64,000 nt of DNA from an uncultured Gammaproteobacteria bacterium (GTDB lineage Bacteria > Pseudomonadota > Gammaproteobacteria > Steroidobacterales > Woeseiaceae): NCBI GenBank assembly GCA_937899415.1, contig CALBPI010000003.1:1-64000 (forward strand), written 5' to 3'. The notes beneath the pieces were generated by a model that saw only the letters and a program-made list of their open reading frames with translations, did no database searches and was not told the origin of the DNA. The position numbers and the translations under genes were made by a program. This document shows, in pieces, positions 33,643 through 43,312 of the stretch (positions are counted from its first letter, which is position 1; the number at the start of each line of letters is the position of its first letter).

Positions 33643-33669
33643 TTAGTTGTATAAATGAGATGTGACGCC

Positions 33670-34155
33670 ATGTCAGCCCCTCAATACCTCGATACCACGG
33701 CCGCGTTCGCGCTCCGGGTGACGCAGCTCTCCGACCGCTTGTACGCGCAAATGGCGTCGTCGATGGCAGACCGCGACATGCGCATCGTGACCAAGACCAT
33801 GGGTATCGTGCAGCTGCTGTATTCGGAAGGCCCGCAGTCGCAGGCAGATATTGCGCAGCGTCTGCGCTACTCGCACCAGCTTGCCGCCCAGCGCCTGAGC
33901 TGGCTCTACAAGCACGACTACGCCGTTGCCGTACCCGACCCCAACGACGGCCGACGCAACGTCATCGACCTGACGGACGCCGGTCGCGAGGAGGGCGCGA
34001 AGCTGCAACGCTTCCTGCCGTTGCTGATCGAGGCCTATCGCCACCTGTTCGATGAACTCGGCCTCGATCTCGATGCCGTCGTGCAGCGGGCCGACGAACA
34101 GCTGCGGGCGACGCCGCTTTCAGCACGGATGCAGGGTGATCTAGGTGTTGGCTGA
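33670..34155 (+). CDS. MarR-family transcriptional regulator
   Basis: 161 aa from ATG 33670. Helical N-terminal dimerisation part, a winged helix (GIVQLLYSEGPQSQADIAQRLRYSHQLAAQRLSWLYKHDYAVAVPDPNDGRRNVIDLTDAGREEG) with the canonical DxRxx wing (DPNDGRRN), and C-terminal dimer helices. The following ABC ATPase gene starts near or within its 3' end, so it probably regulates that ABC/aminopeptidase operon and itself through the palindrome upstream. Confidence 0.92.
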   Translation: MSAPQYLDTTAAFALRVTQLSDRLYAQMASSMADRDMRIVTKTMGIVQLLYSEGPQSQADIAQRLRYSHQLAAQRLSWLYKHDYAVAVPDPNDGRRNVIDLTDAGREEGAKLQRFLPLLIEAYRHLFDELGLDLDAVVQRADEQLRATPLSARMQGDLGVG

Positions 34156-35065
34156 GGCGGTGTCGGCTGCAGCGTCGCACGAAAGCGCGGACGCCATGCT
34201 GGTCATCGATGCTGTGAGCAAGACCTACGCGAAGGGTCCGCTCGCGCTCGACAACGTCAGCCTCTCGATCAAGCCCGGCTTGTTCGGGTTGCTGGGCCCC
34301 AACGGGGCGGGCAAGTCGACGCTCATGCGCACGCTGGCCACGTTGCAACAGCCCTCGAGCGGTTCGGTTCACTTCGACGGCGTCGACGTGGTCGCGTCGC
34401 CCGAGACGGTGCGACGGTCACTGGGCTACCTGCCGCAGGACTTCGGCGTCTACCCGCGGATCAGCGCCTACCGCCTGCTGGACCATCTCGCGATTCTCAA
34501 GGGGCTTACGGACAAGGCGCAACGCCGCGACGAAGTCGACGCATTGCTTCACAAGACCAATCTGTATGCGGATCGCAAACGCTCGGTCAGCACGTTTTCG
34601 GGGGGCATGCGGCAACGGTTTGGCATCGCGCAGGCGTTGCTGGGCGACCCCCGACTTGTCATCGTCGACGAACCCACAGCCGGTTTGGATCCCGCCGAGC
34701 GCAACCGGTTTCACACGCTGCTCGCGGAGCTGTCGCGCGACAAGGTCATTCTGCTCTCCACGCACATCGTCGATGACGTGGAGGAGCTGTGCGCCGAGGT
34801 CGCCATCCTCGTGCGCGGTCGTGTGACACGGGCCGGGGCGCCGGCGTCATTGGTCGACGCGCTGCGCGGCAAACTCTGGAGCCGGCGTGTCCCCCGCGCT
34901 GAACTCGAAGCGGTTGCCAGCGACCCGCGCCACATTGCGACTCGACTGAGCGCTGGCGAGCCTGTTGTCAGAATGGTCGCTGACGCGGCACCGGACGCTG
35001 GCTACGAGCCCGCGGTCCCGGATCTTGAGGACGTCTACTTCCACACACTGAAGACCGCGCAATGA
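34145..35065 (+). CDS. ABC transporter ATP-binding protein
   Basis: 306 aa from GTG 34145 (AGGGTGA upstream, overlapping the MarR stop); ATG 34196 would give a 289-aa product that still holds the whole domain. Walker A GPNGAGKST, signature FSGGMRQRFGIAQAL, Walker B PRLVIVDEPTAGLDP, H-loop LSTHIVDDVEEL. The C-terminal extension ends with YEPAVPDLEDVYFHTL, typical of exporter ATPases that pair with large permeases. Its stop overlaps the permease ATG by 4 nt. Confidence 0.93.
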   Translation: MLAEAVSAAASHESADAMLVIDAVSKTYAKGPLALDNVSLSIKPGLFGLLGPNGAGKSTLMRTLATLQQPSSGSVHFDGVDVVASPETVRRSLGYLPQDFGVYPRISAYRLLDHLAILKGLTDKAQRRDEVDALLHKTNLYADRKRSVSTFSGGMRQRFGIAQALLGDPRLVIVDEPTAGLDPAERNRFHTLLAELSRDKVILLSTHIVDDVEELCAEVAILVRGRVTRAGAPASLVDALRGKLWSRRVPRAELEAVASDPRHIATRLSAGEPVVRMVADAAPDAGYEPAVPDLEDVYFHTLKTAQ

Positions 35066-38000
35066 ACGTCCTCGCGTCGCTGTTTCGGTTTGAGCTCAAT
35101 TACCAGGTTCGTCAGCCCGCGTTCTTTGTGACCACGCTATTGCTGCTCGGCGCCAGCTTCTTCGCAACCGCGTCGGCAGACCTGCAACGCGCGCGGGGCA
35201 TAACCACGACCGTTAACGGCCCCTACGCCGTGGTTATGACGCACCTGGTGCTGAGCATCATTGCCATGTTCCTCGTTGGGCACTTCGTCGGCCGGGCGGC
35301 AACGCGCGACCGCACGCACGATATGGATGGCCTGGTGCTCACAACGCCCGTGCCGACGCAGACGCGCCTTTTGGGTCAGTTACTAGGGGCGGGTGCCGTT
35401 TGTCTGCTGGCCTTTGTGGCCGTGTCGATCGGCGGCGCGGCCGGCGCGTTCTGGCCCGACATTGCCGCGGAACAACGCGGGCCGTTTCGACTGGCACCGT
35501 ATCTCTGGGTGTACCTGGTCATCGTGCTGCCCAATCTCTTCTTCTGCGCCGTTATGCTTTATTCCCTGGCGCGTGTCGTGCGATCGATGATGGGGATGTA
35601 CTTGGGCCTGGTCGCCTTCTTCGTATTTTACGAGGTGGGGACCGAGCTTCTGAACAACCCGGGCTTGCGGTCGCTGGCCGCATTGCTGGATCCGTTCGGG
35701 TTTAGTGCGTTCATCGATGCGACCGGCTATTGGACGGCGGAAGAGAAGAACCAACTATTGGCGCCGGTCACGGGGCCGCTGCTGCTGAATCGCGTGCTCT
35801 GGCTTTGCGTCGCCGCGTCTACCTTGTCGCTGCTGCTGCGGTTTCATGACGAGCGCCGGGAACGCGCTTCCGGTAAGCGTGCCAGTCGGTCCGACGACGC
35901 AAAGGCGCCCGCGTTGGTGTTGCCGCAGCGCCGCGCCAGGCCGTCCGTGCGTGGCGCATCCGGTGTTCGTCAGTTCATGGCGCGCACGCGACTCGAGACC
36001 ACGCAGCTCATTGGCAGTCCGGCGTTCCTCATTCTGAGCCTGCTGACGTCGTTCCTGCTTATTGCCGGGCTCCTTGCCGGCGATGGATTTTACGGCACAC
36101 GCAGCTGGCCGTTGACGCGCATGTTGTCAGAATCCATCCAGGGCGCGCTGTCGCTACTGATCCTCATCGTGCTCAGTTACTACGCCGCCGAATCGGTCTG
36201 GCGCGAACGTCAGGTTGGCGTGTCGTCGCTGATCGATGCGACACCCGTGCACAACGCCGTGCTGTATCTCTCCAAACTCATCGCGCTGTGGGCCGTGATC
36301 ATCGGGCTGTGTGTCGTCGGGGTTGGTATCGCTGTGATCTACCAGACCGCGTCGGGCTACACCGACTACGAGTGGTCGGTCTACGCACAGACCTTAAGCC
36401 TGCAATACCTGCTGCCCGCGATGTTCATCGCCGTGTTGTCGATGCTCATCCAGATTGTCAGCCCCAACAAATACGTCGGCATGCTCGTCTTCGCCGGCTA
36501 TGTCGTCACGAGTCTCGTGTTGCCGCAACTCGGTCTCGAGCATCACCTCTGGCGCTACTCGGAGGGGCCCGAGGCCATCTACTCGGACATGAACGGTCTC
36601 GACCATTTTCTGGCGCCGCTCCTGGCTTATCACCTTTACTGGGGTGTGTTCGCGGCCGCGCTCGTTGTCGTCGGCTACGGTTTGTGGCCGCGCGGCACGG
36701 GTATCGGTTTGCTTGCGCGGGCATACGCAACCCGCGTGACAGTGGGTCGCTCCGGTGCGCTGGTGCTTGCGCTGTGCCTGGCGGCATTCGCGGCCACGGG
36801 CGGTTACATCCACCACAACACCAATGTGCTCAATGACTACCGCAGCGCCGACGCGACGCTCGATTGGCGCGCGGAGTACGAGCGTGAGCTCAAGGCGTTT
36901 CAGTCGGCGCCGCTTCCAAAGATCCGTGCCGTCAGTGCGGAGGTTGCGATCTACCCCGAATCACGTCGGGTCACCGTGGCCGGGCAGTACCGGCTGCGCA
37001 ATGAGACGGCTGCGCCAATCGGCGAGTTTCTCTTGAGTTGGGATACGAACAACGAGGTCACGTTCGCCCTCGAAAACGGCAGGGCGGCCCGGAGGTTTGA
37101 GGCATTGAGCGCGGTCCTCGTCACGCTCGATGAGCCGCTGTTGCCAAGTGCCGAGCGTATGCTCGAGTTCACTGTTGATCGACGCAACGAGGGCTTTCGC
37201 GAGCGTGAGGTCGACAACCGGGTCGTTGCCAACGGCACATTCATCAATAACCAGGAGCTCTTGCTGCGCATCGGCTACGACGCGGACCAGGAGTTGCAGG
37301 ACGCGAGAGACCGGGCCAGACGCGGGCTCGATGACTGGGCGGGGCTCGCTGACCTCGACGACGAGACGCAGTATGGGCGCACCTACCTGGGCGCCGATGT
37401 GCACGAGGTCGATCTCGACGTCACGGTATCGACGCACGTCGACCAGACTGCCATTGCACCCGGTCGGCTATTGCGCGAGTGGGTGGACGGCGAGCGGCGC
37501 TTCTTTCACTACCGGACCGACCGGCCCATTCTGAATTTCTTCACCGTCCTGTCGGGTGACTACGCGGTCGAGACCGTGGTCCACAATGATGTGGAGATCG
37601 CGGTCTACCACCACCCCGAACACGATATGAACGTGGCGCGCATGATCGAGGCGACGCGGGATTCTCTTGACTATTTCGGCGCGGAGTTCGGGCCCTACCA
37701 GTACCAACATGTGCGCATTGTCGAATTCCCGCGCTACGAGTCGTTCGCACAGAGTTTTGCCAACACGATTCCTTACTCCGAAGACATCGGCTTTGTCGCT
37801 GATCTTCGCGACGCCGATACGATCGACTATGTCTATTCCGTGACGGCGCATGAACTCGCCCACCAGTGGTGGGGCCATCAGATCGCGCCCGCGAACGTGC
37901 AGGGCGGCACCGTGCTCTCGGAGTCACTGGCCCAGTACTCGGCCTACATGCTGATTCAGCACCGCTACGGCCCAGCCTATCTGCGGCGCTTCCTGAAGTG

Positions 38001-38640
38001 GGAGCTCGACCGCTATCTGCGTGGCCGGAGCAACGAGACCGATGAAGAGCAGGTTCTGATGCGCACCGAGAACAAGTCCTACATTCACTACCAGAAGGGC
38101 GGGCTGGTTCTTTATGCGCTGCAGGACGTGATGGGCGCCGACCGGTTGCACGCAGCCCTGCGCGACCTGCTCGACAGCTATCGTGACGACCTGCAGGTGT
38201 TTCCGACGACCCGCGACTTGCTGGCGCGCCTTCGGGCAGAAGCTGATCCGGCGTCTGCGGCGTTCATCGAGGACGGGTTCGAACGCATCATGATCTACGA
38301 CTTCAGTGTCCAATCAGCCGTAGGGCGTGCACGGCCGTCGGGCGGGTATCAGATCGAGGTCACAGTGAACGCGGGCAGGGCAGACGCCACCGCCGGTGGT
38401 CGAGGCACGCCCGTCGAAATGGATGAGCAGATCGACGTTGGCTTGCTTCGTGCGCATCCCGATGCGCCGATGACCGCCGAGGACGTGATCGATGTCACCG
38501 TCTCACGGCTCACCGACGGCACACAGTCGCTGACGCTGTACAGCGACGTGCAGCCTGAGTTTGTCTCGGTGGACCCGTTCCTGAAACGCATTGATCGAGA
38601 TGCCGATGACAATACGATGGCGGTGTCCTGGTCTGACTAA
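35062..38640 (+). CDS. ABC permease fused to M1-family aminopeptidase
   Basis: 1192 aa. The first 590 residues contain two ABC-2 type membrane bundles (about 6 helices each, linked by a basic, disordered loop near 275-310). From about 625 the protein is an M1 (gluzincin) peptidase: a beta-rich N-terminal domain, then zinc site HELAHQWWGH at 930-939 with the third ligand glutamate in LSESLAQY, and the DNLM/MMD-like helical end. An exporter and an extracytoplasmic peptidase on one chain is a known but little-studied arrangement in Xanthomonadales and relatives. Likely role: export coupled to, or fed by, N-terminal trimming of peptides. Confidence 0.9.
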   Translation: MNVLASLFRFELNYQVRQPAFFVTTLLLLGASFFATASADLQRARGITTTVNGPYAVVMTHLVLSIIAMFLVGHFVGRAATRDRTHDMDGLVLTTPVPTQTRLLGQLLGAGAVCLLAFVAVSIGGAAGAFWPDIAAEQRGPFRLAPYLWVYLVIVLPNLFFCAVMLYSLARVVRSMMGMYLGLVAFFVFYEVGTELLNNPGLRSLAALLDPFGFSAFIDATGYWTAEEKNQLLAPVTGPLLLNRVLWLCVAASTLSLLLRFHDERRERASGKRASRSDDAKAPALVLPQRRARPSVRGASGVRQFMARTRLETTQLIGSPAFLILSLLTSFLLIAGLLAGDGFYGTRSWPLTRMLSESIQGALSLLILIVLSYYAAESVWRERQVGVSSLIDATPVHNAVLYLSKLIALWAVIIGLCVVGVGIAVIYQTASGYTDYEWSVYAQTLSLQYLLPAMFIAVLSMLIQIVSPNKYVGMLVFAGYVVTSLVLPQLGLEHHLWRYSEGPEAIYSDMNGLDHFLAPLLAYHLYWGVFAAALVVVGYGLWPRGTGIGLLARAYATRVTVGRSGALVLALCLAAFAATGGYIHHNTNVLNDYRSADATLDWRAEYERELKAFQSAPLPKIRAVSAEVAIYPESRRVTVAGQYRLRNETAAPIGEFLLSWDTNNEVTFALENGRAARRFEALSAVLVTLDEPLLPSAERMLEFTVDRRNEGFREREVDNRVVANGTFINNQELLLRIGYDADQELQDARDRARRGLDDWAGLADLDDETQYGRTYLGADVHEVDLDVTVSTHVDQTAIAPGRLLREWVDGERRFFHYRTDRPILNFFTVLSGDYAVETVVHNDVEIAVYHHPEHDMNVARMIEATRDSLDYFGAEFGPYQYQHVRIVEFPRYESFAQSFANTIPYSEDIGFVADLRDADTIDYVYSVTAHELAHQWWGHQIAPANVQGGTVLSESLAQYSAYMLIQHRYGPAYLRRFLKWELDRYLRGRSNETDEEQVLMRTENKSYIHYQKGGLVLYALQDVMGADRLHAALRDLLDSYRDDLQVFPTTRDLLARLRAEADPASAAFIEDGFERIMIYDFSVQSAVGRARPSGGYQIEVTVNAGRADATAGGRGTPVEMDEQIDVGLLRAHPDAPMTAEDVIDVTVSRLTDGTQSLTLYSDVQPEFVSVDPFLKRIDRDADDNTMAVSWSD

Positions 38641-38756: not shown

Positions 38757-39809
38757 TTGAAGCACGTATTGGTCTTGCTGCTGGTCTTGAGTACACCTTC
38801 CTTGCTTGCCGCTGAAAATCGGCCATTCACCTTCGAGTACCAGGAACTGACGTATGCCGGGGAGATCATGCAGCCGCAAAGCGCGGCGAAAGGCATGGTC
38901 GTCATCATTCCGGGGCACGGGCCGACGGAGTTCGTGGAGGGCGATGAATACCAGGAGCTCAGAGCGTTCCTCGTCGCGCAGCAGTACAGCGTGGCGTACT
39001 GGGACAAGGCCGGATGCGGGCTCAGCGAAGGCGAGTACGACCACAACCAGTCGATTGAAAGCAGTGCCGATGAGGCGCTCGCTGCGATTGAAGCCATTCA
39101 GGAGCTTGATGTCACCGGTGCTGACAAGCTGGGTTTCTGGAGTATCAGCCGCGGCGGCTGGATCGTGCCCAAGATTTCAGAGTCCTTCGATGGCATGCGG
39201 TTCTGGATTTCGATCAGCGGTACGACCGCGATCGAGAACAGCCGCTACATGCTCGAGGCCAACCTGAAAGCGGAGAAGCGCACCCCCGAGCAGATTGCGC
39301 TGTTGATGTCGGAGTGGGACGACTACCAGAGGATTCTTGTGCGCGGCGGAACGCTCGAAGACTTCAACGCGAGTACTCAGAACCTCATGGCGGATGCCTA
39401 CTACAACGGCGACAACTTTCAGATGACGGCGGAGATCCTCGCCAACATCCAGGGGTTCTTTGGTTCCGGGGCATTCGAGTTTGACGACCAGACGAATCAG
39501 ATCGTGATGTACCCCGACCTGGAGTCGACGCTGCGTCGCTTGTCGATTCCTGTCATCGCGATCCTGGGCCGTCTCGACTCGCAAATCGACTGGCAAGCCA
39601 CAGGCGCGCTGTACGAGCGCGCGGCGCAAGCCGGCGGCATGCAATTGGACACGGTCTACCTCGACAACTGCAATCATGTCATGCAGACCAGCGTGACTGG
39701 TGCCTTGTACGAAGATCTGCCACCCGACACGCCCGCTTGCGCCGGCTACTACGATGCCATGCGCACTTGGCTCCAGGGCGTTGGTGCCGGCGAGGCGGAA
39801 GCCCCTTAG
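38757..39809 (+). CDS. exported alpha/beta hydrolase
   Basis: 350 aa with TTG start at 38757 after GGGAGA. Signal peptide ends at LLAAEN. Hydrolase fold: IIPGHGPTEF oxyanion loop, YWDKAGCGLSEG, nucleophile elbow GFWSISRGGW, acid in AILGRLDSQID, base in DNCNHVM. The pattern matches the S9/serine-aminopeptidase-like 'dienelactone hydrolase' branch. It shares WDK(A/P)G-G-SEG and (S/G)SR-GWI with the lipoprotein hydrolase at 42.2 kb, so the two are paralogues. Substrate unknown; close to the M1 aminopeptidase fusion, 116 bp upstream. Confidence 0.85.
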   Translation: MKHVLVLLLVLSTPSLLAAENRPFTFEYQELTYAGEIMQPQSAAKGMVVIIPGHGPTEFVEGDEYQELRAFLVAQQYSVAYWDKAGCGLSEGEYDHNQSIESSADEALAAIEAIQELDVTGADKLGFWSISRGGWIVPKISESFDGMRFWISISGTTAIENSRYMLEANLKAEKRTPEQIALLMSEWDDYQRILVRGGTLEDFNASTQNLMADAYYNGDNFQMTAEILANIQGFFGSGAFEFDDQTNQIVMYPDLESTLRRLSIPVIAILGRLDSQIDWQATGALYERAAQAGGMQLDTVYLDNCNHVMQTSVTGALYEDLPPDTPACAGYYDAMRTWLQGVGAGEAEAP

Positions 39810-39861
39810 TGGCGTTGCTGGCATCGGCGACACCGATTGACGTGGCGACATCGGGGGCGTC

Positions 39862-40893
39862 ATGCTCTCAGCGCCTATGCACACGCTGGAAGACAGAAAT
39901 CATCTTGGCGGGACGGCGCCTTCGAGTGAGCGCGCGCCCGGGCTAGATCGCGCGTCCCCGTCACGTCGGTCAGGTGTGTTCGCGCGTTTGCAGCCCTGGG
40001 TTCAAGCCGCGCGCCCGATCGCGCACCCCATGATCTTCGTACCCCTGCTGCTCGGGCAGGCATTTGCGTTCCAGGCCCATGGGCAATTCAGTGCGACGTT
40101 CTTCGTTTTCGCGCTGGCGTTCGGCCTGCTCTACCAGGTGTATCTGCTTTACACCAACGACCATGTCGATGCCGCCATCGACGCGACTAACGTGCAGTAC
40201 TGGCTTTCGGGTGGCTCCCGAGTCGTGCCCGAGGGCAAGCTGACCGAATTGCAACTGCTCGCCGGTGCCCGGGTCACGCTGATGATGCTGGCAGCCTTCA
40301 CGGTGATTCTCGCCGTGGCGGCGCAGCGGCCCTTGATGCCGGTCGCGCTGCTTTTGGCCGCGGTGCTCTGCTGGGCCTATAACCGCAAGCCCCTGCAACT
40401 GTCCTATCGCGGTTACGGCGAGGTCTTGCAGGGCCTGGGGTGCGGCGTACTGTTGCCCCTGATCGGCTACTACCTTCAAAACGGCGCGCTGCAGGGCTTT
40501 CCCTGGGCCGCTCTGATCCCGCTCTACCTCGTATTCCACGCCGGCAATCTCGTGACAGCGCTGCCGGACTACGCCTCTGACAAAGCCGGTGGCAAACGGA
40601 CGTTTCCGGTGCGGCGGGGTGAGCTGCCTGCGCGGTGGACCGCTTTCGTGCTGCTGGGCGGCGCCTACGCGAGCCTGTTCTTTGTGGCGCCCGCATTCTC
40701 ACCCGTGGTGCTTGCGGTCATTGTTGGGCCGGCCGGGCTCCTCCTTGCCGGCCTGATCCTGTCCGGGCTCATAGGTCGCGCCAATGTGAGCGCATTCTCG
40801 CAGTGCAGGGCTTTTGTTAACGGCGTATCCGCGAGCCAGGCCTGGTTCTTGTGCGCCTGGGTTGGTGCCGCATTCCTGGCGGGTGCGCCATGA
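39862..40893 (+). CDS. UbiA-family prenyltransferase
   Basis: 343 aa (an ATG at 39877 is equally possible). About eight to nine transmembrane helices. The two aspartate-rich motifs of UbiA/MenA enzymes are present: YTNDHVDAAIDATN after helix 2, and LPDYASDKAGGKRT in the second half. These bind the polyprenyl diphosphate through magnesium. Length is near that of MenA (about 300) with a longer N-terminus. No quinone pathway genes are beside it; instead its stop overlaps the start of a flavin amine-oxidase-like gene, so an unusual prenylated product is possible. Confidence 0.85.
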   Translation: MLSAPMHTLEDRNHLGGTAPSSERAPGLDRASPSRRSGVFARLQPWVQAARPIAHPMIFVPLLLGQAFAFQAHGQFSATFFVFALAFGLLYQVYLLYTNDHVDAAIDATNVQYWLSGGSRVVPEGKLTELQLLAGARVTLMMLAAFTVILAVAAQRPLMPVALLLAAVLCWAYNRKPLQLSYRGYGEVLQGLGCGVLLPLIGYYLQNGALQGFPWAALIPLYLVFHAGNLVTALPDYASDKAGGKRTFPVRRGELPARWTAFVLLGGAYASLFFVAPAFSPVVLAVIVGPAGLLLAGLILSGLIGRANVSAFSQCRAFVNGVSASQAWFLCAWVGAAFLAGAP

Positions 40894-42203
40894 AAGTTGC
40901 GGTCGTTGGCAGCGGCATCGCGGGGCTCACCGCCGCGTGGTCATTGAGCACGCGACACGAGGTGACCGTCTTCGAGAAGAGCGCGAACCCGGGCATGGAC
41001 GCGCACTCGCTCGATATCGAAACTCCTGAGGGCGCTGCGCGTGTTGACGTGCCGTTGCGTGTCTTCTTTGATGGCTTCTATCCGAACCTCACGAAGCTCT
41101 ACCGCTTGCTGGGCGTCGAGTTCAAGCCAATCAATTATTCGGCATCATTCGGTCTGCTCGGTGAAAACACCTACTTCCGTTTCGATAACTACAAGGTCGG
41201 GCGGTACACGGTGCCGTTTCTAAAAGGTCGTCGATCCCTGAACCGGACCGGACTACGTATCGGCTTGGACAATCTGCGGTTCTTCCGACGGCTCGCGTCG
41301 GAGCTTGCATGGGGCGTCGATGATGATCTGACCCTGCAGGACTACCTCACGCGTCACAACTACTCGCGCTCATTCGCCGAGGGTTTTCTTTACCCGGCGT
41401 TTGCCGGTATCTGCACGTGCAGCCACGAGAGCATCAAAGCCTATCCGGCGCGCGTTGTTCTGGAATACCTCAATAGCGACTTGCTGTTGTCGTCTGTGCA
41501 GCGCGTGACGCGTGGCACGCAGGAGGTCGTGGACCGGTTGGCGCATCAGGTCCATGAGATTCGGCTTGGCCAGGCGATCACCGAGGTCTATGAGACCGAT
41601 GCTGGCGTTACCGTGCACACCGCAGCTTCCCGCGACATGTTCGATCACGTCGTCATGGCTACACAAGCCAATCAGACGGCGCAGATCCTGACCCGCGCCT
41701 CGGCCGATGAACGTGCCGCGCTGCAACGCTTTCGTTACGAGCCCAGCCGCGTGGTGGTGCACCAGGACGCGCGGCTTGCACCGCCGGGCGGTGTGCGCGC
41801 CTGGGCGCCCGTCAATTTTCTGTTGCCCGACACGACATCTACACCGATGGCGACGATCTGGCTCAATGCCATACAGGCGATGCCGGGAAGTTCGCCAGTC
41901 TTCCAGTCCTGGAACCCCGTCGTCGAGCCAGATCCGGAAGCCGTTCTGGGCGAGTCGAGTTTCGAACGCCCCGTGGTCAGTGCCGCTTCACTGCGCGGGC
42001 TGCGCGAGCTCGCCACGCTGCACGCTCAGCCCGACCGGCGCATCTGGTTCTGCGGGTCCTACGCAAGCCATGGCATCCCGCTGCTTGAGAGCGCAGCCAA
42101 CTCGGCGCTGTCTGTCGCCGAGCGATTAGGGTGTCCGCGGCCCTGGGCTGACGTGCCCGCGGCGCCTGCTCGGGGTGATCTCGCCAGCGCGGCGAGCACC
42201 TAG
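40890..42203 (+). CDS. FAD-dependent amine-oxidase-like oxidoreductase
   Basis: 437 aa from ATG 40890 (ATGA overlap with the prenyltransferase). Rossmann FAD-binding VAVVGSGIAGLTAAWSLS at the N-terminus, VFEKSANPGMDAHS, and a C-terminal flavin motif RIWFCGSYASHGIPLLESAANSALSVAE. The substrate-binding middle resembles NAD(P)/FAD proteins of the UfaO/phytoene-desaturase type (FFDGFYPNLTKLYRLLGVEF) more than true amine oxidases. It probably oxidises a lipid or the prenylated product of its partner (inference). Confidence 0.85.
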   Translation: MKVAVVGSGIAGLTAAWSLSTRHEVTVFEKSANPGMDAHSLDIETPEGAARVDVPLRVFFDGFYPNLTKLYRLLGVEFKPINYSASFGLLGENTYFRFDNYKVGRYTVPFLKGRRSLNRTGLRIGLDNLRFFRRLASELAWGVDDDLTLQDYLTRHNYSRSFAEGFLYPAFAGICTCSHESIKAYPARVVLEYLNSDLLLSSVQRVTRGTQEVVDRLAHQVHEIRLGQAITEVYETDAGVTVHTAASRDMFDHVVMATQANQTAQILTRASADERAALQRFRYEPSRVVVHQDARLAPPGGVRAWAPVNFLLPDTTSTPMATIWLNAIQAMPGSSPVFQSWNPVVEPDPEAVLGESSFERPVVSAASLRGLRELATLHAQPDRRIWFCGSYASHGIPLLESAANSALSVAERLGCPRPWADVPAAPARGDLASAAST

Positions 42204-43312
42204 TCGCGATCCAGCACGTGTTCCTGTAGCCAGGCGAGCTGCGCTTCGTAGTAGCGCGCCGTTTTCTTGCGCTTGGGCGATGCCGCCATTTCCTTGAGGC
42301 TGCCGGTCTCTGACACATTTAGCGCGTGGTCGGCGTCCGCGAAGCTTTCGATCTTGAGTGTTGCTTCGGTGTTCGTACCAATCGTGCTGACGTAAAGGTC
42401 TCGGGTCTTGCGCCAGTTGATGTTGAGGTCCTTTTCACCGAACAGTGCGAGCACGTCGATGTTCAGTGAGGCCAGCATGTCGTCGAAGCCCTCGATCCAG
42501 ACGTAGTCGCACAACTCGTTGTCGGTGTTCGGGCACTCACCGTCCTTGCAGCGCATCTGGTTGAGCTCGTACTGCAATCGGTTGGGCCACGCGCCGCGCT
42601 TTTCCAGGATGTACTCATTGGCGCGAAGCGTCTGTGTGGCTTCCTGGTAAGCGGCGAAGCTGCCGTTGTTGCGGAAGATCTCGCAGCCGGCGCGCCACTC
42701 GGACTCAATCGCGCGGACCTCTTCCTCCGTGCCGCCTTCATAGGGCAGGTTGGATAGCAGCAGATAGGTGAAGTTGTCCTCGGCCGTGGTGCCGCTCACC
42801 GACACCCAGAAGTCGAGCTCTGGGTCTTGCGACAGGGCGATGGGTGCGATCCAGCCGGCGCGGCTGCCGCCCCACAGTCCGATCTTCTCTGCGCCGGGTG
42901 CGCCGATCTCCCGCAGGTAGGCTGCCGCATCAAGCACTTCCTGCGCGCTTTCGTGGACAGACTGGTTGATATCGAAGGTGCCTTCGCTGCGGCCCAGGCC
43001 TGGCTTGTCCCAGAGCGCCGTGGCGATGCCCATCTCATTGAACCGCTTGCGTACCGGGCTGTACGAAATCCAGTTGCGGACATCGGTGTGCCCGTAGCTG
43101 TGAACGATGATGATGAGGGCTTCGGCGGGTTTGTCGGCGGGGACGTCGAAGACGCCGGAGAGCTCAACGTCACTCGACCTAAACGTGAAGTCGACCGTGG
43201 CGCCCGCTGTGAACGAGGTGGGCTGGGGCGCGAGCTCATTAGCGGTCGGCATATCGCAGCCATACAGACTTAAAACAGCGAGAACAAGGTAACTGACGGT
43301 GACGCGGCGCAT
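42200..43312 (-). CDS. lipoprotein alpha/beta hydrolase
   Basis: 370 aa. Signal peptide with lipobox LYGC (VLSLYGCDMPT). Hydrolase fold: IIIVHSYGHTD, ALWDKPGLGRSEG, nucleophile elbow GLWGGSRAGW, acid in ALFGEKDLNINW, base in DADHALNVSE. It is a paralogue of the hydrolase at 38.8 kb (same WDKPG-G-SEG and SRAGWI signatures) but lipid-anchored and on the opposite strand. Four cysteines in an insertion around MRCKDGECPNTDNELCDY may form disulfides. Converges with the amine-oxidase gene (4-bp overlap). Confidence 0.85.
   Translation of the reverse strand: MRRVTVSYLVLAVLSLYGCDMPTANELAPQPTSFTAGATVDFTFRSSDVELSGVFDVPADKPAEALIIIVHSYGHTDVRNWISYSPVRKRFNEMGIATALWDKPGLGRSEGTFDINQSVHESAQEVLDAAAYLREIGAPGAEKIGLWGGSRAGWIAPIALSQDPELDFWVSVSGTTAEDNFTYLLLSNLPYEGGTEEEVRAIESEWRAGCEIFRNNGSFAAYQEATQTLRANEYILEKRGAWPNRLQYELNQMRCKDGECPNTDNELCDYVWIEGFDDMLASLNIDVLALFGEKDLNINWRKTRDLYVSTIGTNTEATLKIESFADADHALNVSETGSLKEMAASPKRKKTARYYEAQLAWLQEHVLDRD

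Follow-up and report, generated by a model that had tools for sequence, protein, structure and literature searches.

The flavin enzyme of the furan fatty acid pathway is UfaD, an NAD/FAD-binding protein related to phytoene desaturases that adds a second, conjugated double bond adjoining the methyl-branched one in phospholipid chains, and UfaO is a DUF1365 protein (PMC7380195). The window, i.e., the whole 64,000-nucleotide stretch of DNA analyzed here, encodes a homologous FAD oxidoreductase with 28 to 34% identity to DUF1365-linked homologs. However, this protein belongs to a sister clade (support, 100/100), has no DUF1365 neighbor, and differs at 21 positions. The closest solved structure to the flavin protein is that of LkcE, the lankacidin amine oxidase/cyclase (27 to 28% identity; Z score of 37.9). 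Two residues mutated in LkcE structures set the proteins apart: E64 aligns with an invariant Arg57, and R326 lies in an alignment insertion (judged by eye). Furthermore, no polyketide genes were found near the window pair. Because LkcE E64 aligns with an invariant arginine, the alignment does not imply LkcE chemistry for the flavin protein.

BchG and BchP, which also occur in the genome of the window, likewise combine a UbiA-type enzyme with a flavin enzyme acting on a prenyl chain. BchP, however, belongs to another flavin family and reduces geranylgeranyl groups, and the window pair is not BchG/BchP. In C50 carotenoid systems (elongase and lycopene cyclase), a UbiA-type enzyme stands beside a lycopene-cyclase-domain protein, as does a sister-branch UbiA of Ilyobacter, whereas no cyclase or carotenoid core genes lie beside the window pair. 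MenA and MenA-like enzymes are the nearest curated models of the window UbiA and resemble it in the UbiA fold and the second motif, but the window protein scores below all cutoffs, forms its own branch, and carries NDxxDxxxD as its first motif.

Organization and conservation of the gene pair

All four open reading frames of the locus were present where a sequence-only reading of this DNA had placed them. They encode an exported alpha/beta-hydrolase (38757 to 39809, forward strand), a UbiA-superfamily prenyltransferase (39862 to 40893, forward strand), an FAD-dependent oxidase/dehydrogenase with an LkcE/UfaD-type flavin amine-oxidase fold (40890 to 42203, forward strand), and a paralogous lipoprotein-type alpha/beta-hydrolase (42200 to 43312, reverse strand) that is convergent with the pair. 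The sequence also confirmed the claimed overlap between the UbiA and flavin genes at ATGA (40890 to 40893, forward strand), in which the UbiA stop codon TGA (40891 to 40893) overlaps the flavin-gene ATG (40890 to 40892). The flavin-gene stop in turn overlaps the stop of the convergent hydrolase gene (CTAG). The upstream hydrolase gene, which has the same orientation as UbiA, stops some 50 bases short of it and probably shares a transcript with the pair. A scan of the locus for promoters and terminators gave no signal above chance.

The UbiA and flavin genes are a conserved two-gene unit, not a four-gene unit. A scan of named genome contigs yielded nine loci. The window and L062 to L069 make nine loci with both flanks on the contig, and the two genes were adjacent and codirectional in all nine, with the order flavin-UbiA in L063 and L069; the contig of another locus, L070, stops within UbiA. 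Conservation of the pair had been named beforehand as a refutation test for the sequence-only reading, and the claim was not refuted by it. The Lysobacterales locus L062 shows 60/61% identity to the window pair, L064 to L068 are from Gammaproteobacteria, L063 is labeled Nitrospinaceae, and L069 is from SAR324. Given the near identity of L063 and L069, the Nitrospinaceae label of the 4-kb contig may reflect mis-binning of SAR324 DNA. L064, L065, and L068 duplicate the records of genomes G135, G325, and G209, respectively. With these caveats, about six lineages remain (Gammaproteobacteria and the SAR324/Nitrospinaceae-labeled lineage). The UbiA reading frame of the SAR324 metagenome-assembled genome is split over two frames (L069, 10055 to 10967), and the L063 copy is intact.

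Among 99 genomes of relatives, a high-scoring UbiA with an adjoining flavin partner was found in the window's own genome only. Two relatives, G067 and G080, each have two tandem genes for a related UbiA (L048 and L049) and no flavin partner beside them, and in G080 a 234-amino-acid protein with no Pfam or NCBIfam match is encoded between them. In the class sample (369 genomes), the UbiA clade was present in four genomes: the window's own, G135, G209, and G325. The same four genomes scored at least 750 bits with the flavin profile, followed by G122 at 409 bits and a drop to 244 bits, such that the flavin clade was carried by all four UbiA-clade genomes and by G122 as the sole other carrier. By hand count, the chance of this 3/3 co-occurrence among 368 genomes (own genome left out) is about 5e-7, with G209 and G325 belonging to the same genus. 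In a search of plasmids, the Ilyobacter protein was the one match for UbiA, and matches for the flavin protein were at the level of UfaD only (31 to 33% identity).

The flanking hydrolases are paralogous with shared signatures, as previously read from the sequence: they are 30% identical over 334 amino acids (E value, 4e-42), and both contain WDK-G-SEG and S-R-[GA]-GW as well as what appears to be a Ser/Asp/His set. Their matches to alpha/beta-hydrolases are weak, and only the product of 38757 to 39809 passes a Pfam cutoff; its N terminus looks like a Sec signal and that of the product of 42200 to 43312 looks like a lipoprotein signal. No homologs of either protein were encoded in the other pair neighborhoods. 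When profiles were run against 13 genomes that bear the pair or are related, matches came from G067 (one true homolog) and G828 only, with none in the genomes behind L059, L060, L061, L063, L066, L067, and L069. In G828, the genome of L062 and the closest pair genome, the orthologs (63% and 73% identical, the latter being that of 42200 to 43312) lie on two other contigs, and the G067 ortholog, that of 38757 to 39809, is likewise unlinked. Both hydrolases are thus old in the lineage, and their placement on either side of the pair seems to be a local feature. Their absence near the pair elsewhere places them outside the conserved unit. The four-gene unit suggested by the earlier reading did not hold up, and we rejected it as a conserved entity because the hydrolases are unlinked to the pair elsewhere.

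Clades of the UbiA and flavin proteins

The UbiA protein matched PF01040 with 84.2 bits (gathering cutoff, 34.2). Both Asp-rich motifs are intact (NDHVDAAID and DYASDKAGGKRT) and invariant in the alignment. The true start may lie downstream of the annotated one, because the first approximately 38 residues are not conserved. The AF2 model (pLDDT of 87.5) had UbiA of A. fulgidus as its best structural match (E value, 5.6e-7). The protein scored below every NCBIfam cutoff; the best match was a MenA-like model (78 bits versus a cutoff of 264), and the menA equivalog TIGR00751 gave 34.8 bits versus a cutoff of 102. UbiA proteins of the pair formed one group in two trees (supports of 94/94 and 86/93), joined (99 to 100%) solely by the tandem UbiAs of G067 and G080 and one UbiA from Ilyobacter polytropus. 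MenA proteins, including that of E. coli, formed another clade in both trees. The first motif reads NDxxDxxxD in UbiA versus NDxxDxxxG in the MenA rows, and its second Asp-rich motif resembles that of MenA. Thus, the trees and the NCBIfam scores separate the protein from housekeeping MenA/UbiA enzymes, a grouping that the sequence-only reading had named as the outcome that would count against it. Elsewhere, the genome of the window encodes a 4-hydroxybenzoate UbiA, BchG, and CyoE (heme O synthase), each above its curated cutoff, so that the window UbiA is the fourth such enzyme in the genome.

Two other settings of UbiA-type genes were observed. On plasmid pILYOP01 of the fusobacterium I. polytropus, the sister-branch UbiA directly follows a lycopene-cyclase-domain gene (L123, 8296 to 9894). 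In G024 and G036 (L050 and L051), a MenA-like UbiA (154 bits versus a cutoff of 264; slightly above the menA cutoff) lies between genes of the Nqr sodium pump and an operon for a NiFe hydrogenase.

The flavin protein contains a GSGIAGL dinucleotide motif and matched the Pfam families Amino_oxidase (53.6 bits) and NAD_binding_8 (55 bits) above their cutoffs; its best NCBIfam match was HpnE (58 bits versus a cutoff of 283). The AF2 model (pLDDT of 85.3) was closest to LkcE, aligning over 400 residues at 28% identity. After a gap below LkcE, the structural matches were many flavin oxidases, including phytoene desaturase and a fatty-acid isomerase. In the flavin tree, the two sister clades comprised 37 DUF1365-linked proteins and 13 proteins including that of the window. 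All 37 of the former had a DUF1365 neighbor, and nearly all had a Cfa-type methyltransferase as well. Members of the window clade were next to UbiA in nine cases and next to an S-adenosylmethionine (SAM) methyltransferase in four; none was next to DUF1365. The positions that distinguish the two clades are fixed or nearly fixed (e.g., R57 for I/M and P55 for G). UfaD itself was absent from the tree, and we infer its placement in the DUF1365-linked clade from gene order. The earlier label "UfaO-like" was incorrect, since UfaO is a DUF1365 protein (PMC7380195) and the flavin gene has flavin oxidase Pfam domains only; a search of the window's genome found no DUF1365 gene, and the label was rejected.

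The flavin genes of the SAR324 type grouped with the methyltransferase-linked ones and not with those of the gammaproteobacterial pair, whereas their UbiA grouped with that of the window. Because the two trees disagree for SAR324, the sequences suggest repeated pairing, partner exchange, or UbiA loss. In G076, G061, G089, and G122 (L019, L020, L021, and L090), the window-clade flavin gene is followed by a SAM methyltransferase gene, and no UbiA of the window clade was detected at the thresholds used. The methyltransferases beside these four flavin genes gave weak matches, all below cutoff.

Proposed function of the pair and rival explanations

We hold with moderate confidence that the pair is a translationally coupled two-enzyme unit in which UbiA prenylates an acceptor in the membrane to give a product that the flavin enzyme dehydrogenates or oxidizes. 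The membrane-embedded UbiA would use a prenyl diphosphate as the donor, and its acceptor would be none of the precursors of ubiquinone, heme, or bacteriochlorophyll. The flavin enzyme would then remove hydrogen from the UbiA product, or oxygenate it, using FAD and probably O2, to yield an oxidized or extra-unsaturated prenylated membrane lipid. We infer the order of action, the acceptor, desaturation over other oxidation, and the lipid role. The flavin step is modeled on UfaD, which desaturates beside a double bond with a methyl branch; isoprene units contain such a bond as well. This link to UfaD is a chemical analogy, in which the methyl-branched double bond is methyltransferase made for UfaD and built in for a prenyl group; the same methyl-branch logic would cover the methyltransferase-linked flavin members.

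Genes just upstream of UbiA or near the pair were compared among the loci. IPP isomerase (above cutoff) is directly upstream of UbiA in L064, and the gene just upstream of it belongs to the fatty-acid-hydroxylase family in L067 and encodes a fatty-acid desaturase-reductase fusion in L061. A CrtI-like gene is downstream of the pair in L066, a metallo-beta-lactamase-fold gene is near the pair in L060, and a small kinase-like gene is near it in L062. The lipid and isoprenoid neighbors, which were selected after inspection, each occur at a single locus and none recurs. The occasional IPP isomerase, hydroxylase, desaturase, and CrtI-like neighbors fit prenyl-lipid tailoring, but the occurrence of no tailoring neighbor at more than one locus counts against the proposed two-enzyme unit. 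Flavin enzymes of this fold serve amines, heme precursors, polyketides, and lipids alike. The substrate of the flavin enzyme need not be prenylated, because its clade also occurs beside a methyltransferase without a window-clade UbiA.

The nearest curated UbiA models are aromatic prenyltransferases, and this, together with the MenA-like second Asp-rich motif, would suit prenylation of an aromatic head group whose ring is then oxidized or oxidatively cyclized by the flavin enzyme to a tocopherol- or chromene-like membrane antioxidant. Such a route seems unlikely: no aromatic-precursor gene occurs at any pair locus, and all UbiA scores are so far under the curated cutoffs that the acceptor class is not read from them. 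The same MenA-like top models could mean that UbiA is a menaquinone-pathway MenA that has diverged and that the neighboring flavin gene is unrelated to it, which we regard as most improbable. The protein reaches about a third of the menA cutoff (35 versus 102 bits), falls outside the MenA clade, and differs from MenA in its first motif, and its pairing with the flavin gene is conserved. In addition, a search limited to MenD found none above the cutoff in the genome (best, 50.8 bits; cutoff, 244). A MenA/menaquinone role was rejected on the scores, the tree, and the MenD result.

Less likely again than the aromatic route is the addition of isoprene by UbiA to a carotenoid-like polyene or other isoprenoid, in the manner of lycopene elongases, with the flavin enzyme desaturating the product. 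The lycopene-cyclase-domain gene directly preceding the Ilyobacter UbiA, the IPP isomerase in L064, and the CrtI-like gene in L066 favor this explanation. However, the Ilyobacter protein is on a sister branch and has no adjoining flavin gene, no gene for phytoene synthase or desaturase was observed next to the pair at any locus, and the UbiA tree was built without lycopene elongases (CrtEb/LyeJ). It is very unlikely that the four genes together make up a single lipid pathway of the lineage, with the exported hydrolases releasing or trimming a prenylated product. The short same-strand gap between the upstream hydrolase gene and UbiA agrees with this pathway, as does a weak co-occurrence (both orthologs in G828, and one in G067, which has the sister UbiA), but the hydrolases are unlinked in those two genomes and, as described above, matched neither the seven other genomes nor any other pair neighborhood.

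For the two-enzyme unit proposed here, the earlier idea that the pair makes or remodels a prenylated lipid was borne out as a fit, through conservation of the pair and the separate UbiA clade. The lipid may serve as the antioxidant or pigment suggested earlier or have another role. A more speculative extension, which we consider doubtful, is that a stand-alone UbiA with a UfaD-sister enzyme conjugating beside an isoprenoid methyl branch makes an undescribed class of oxidized or conjugated prenyl lipids.

Novelty and genomic context

The UbiA and flavin superfamilies are well known, and their pairing and the two clades appear to be undescribed; a literature search of open-license PubMed Central found no description of a UbiA-flavin pair. 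If the proposed function is correct, a two-gene cassette of uncultured marine and soil-type bacteria would make a membrane lipid that has not been linked to genes in any lipid survey, and would provide a route to a new prenyl lipid that is minimal and can be cloned. Three settings of the flavin enzyme (DUF1365 and methyltransferase, methyltransferase alone, and UbiA) would then be united by chemistry beside a methyl-branched double bond.

Other genes of the same genome (G000) were also noted. On contig C84 (L101, 2432 to 5845), BchG and BchP flank a major-facilitator-type gene that looks PucC-like by eye. BchG and BchP are both above their cutoffs, and given their presence the genome is probably that of a phototroph. 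Within the window, a gene for an ABC ATPase is followed by one whose product joins an ABC-2 permease to an M1-type peptidase domain (34145 to 38640), and a MarR-like gene (by eye; 33655 to 34155) lies upstream of the ABC ATPase gene.
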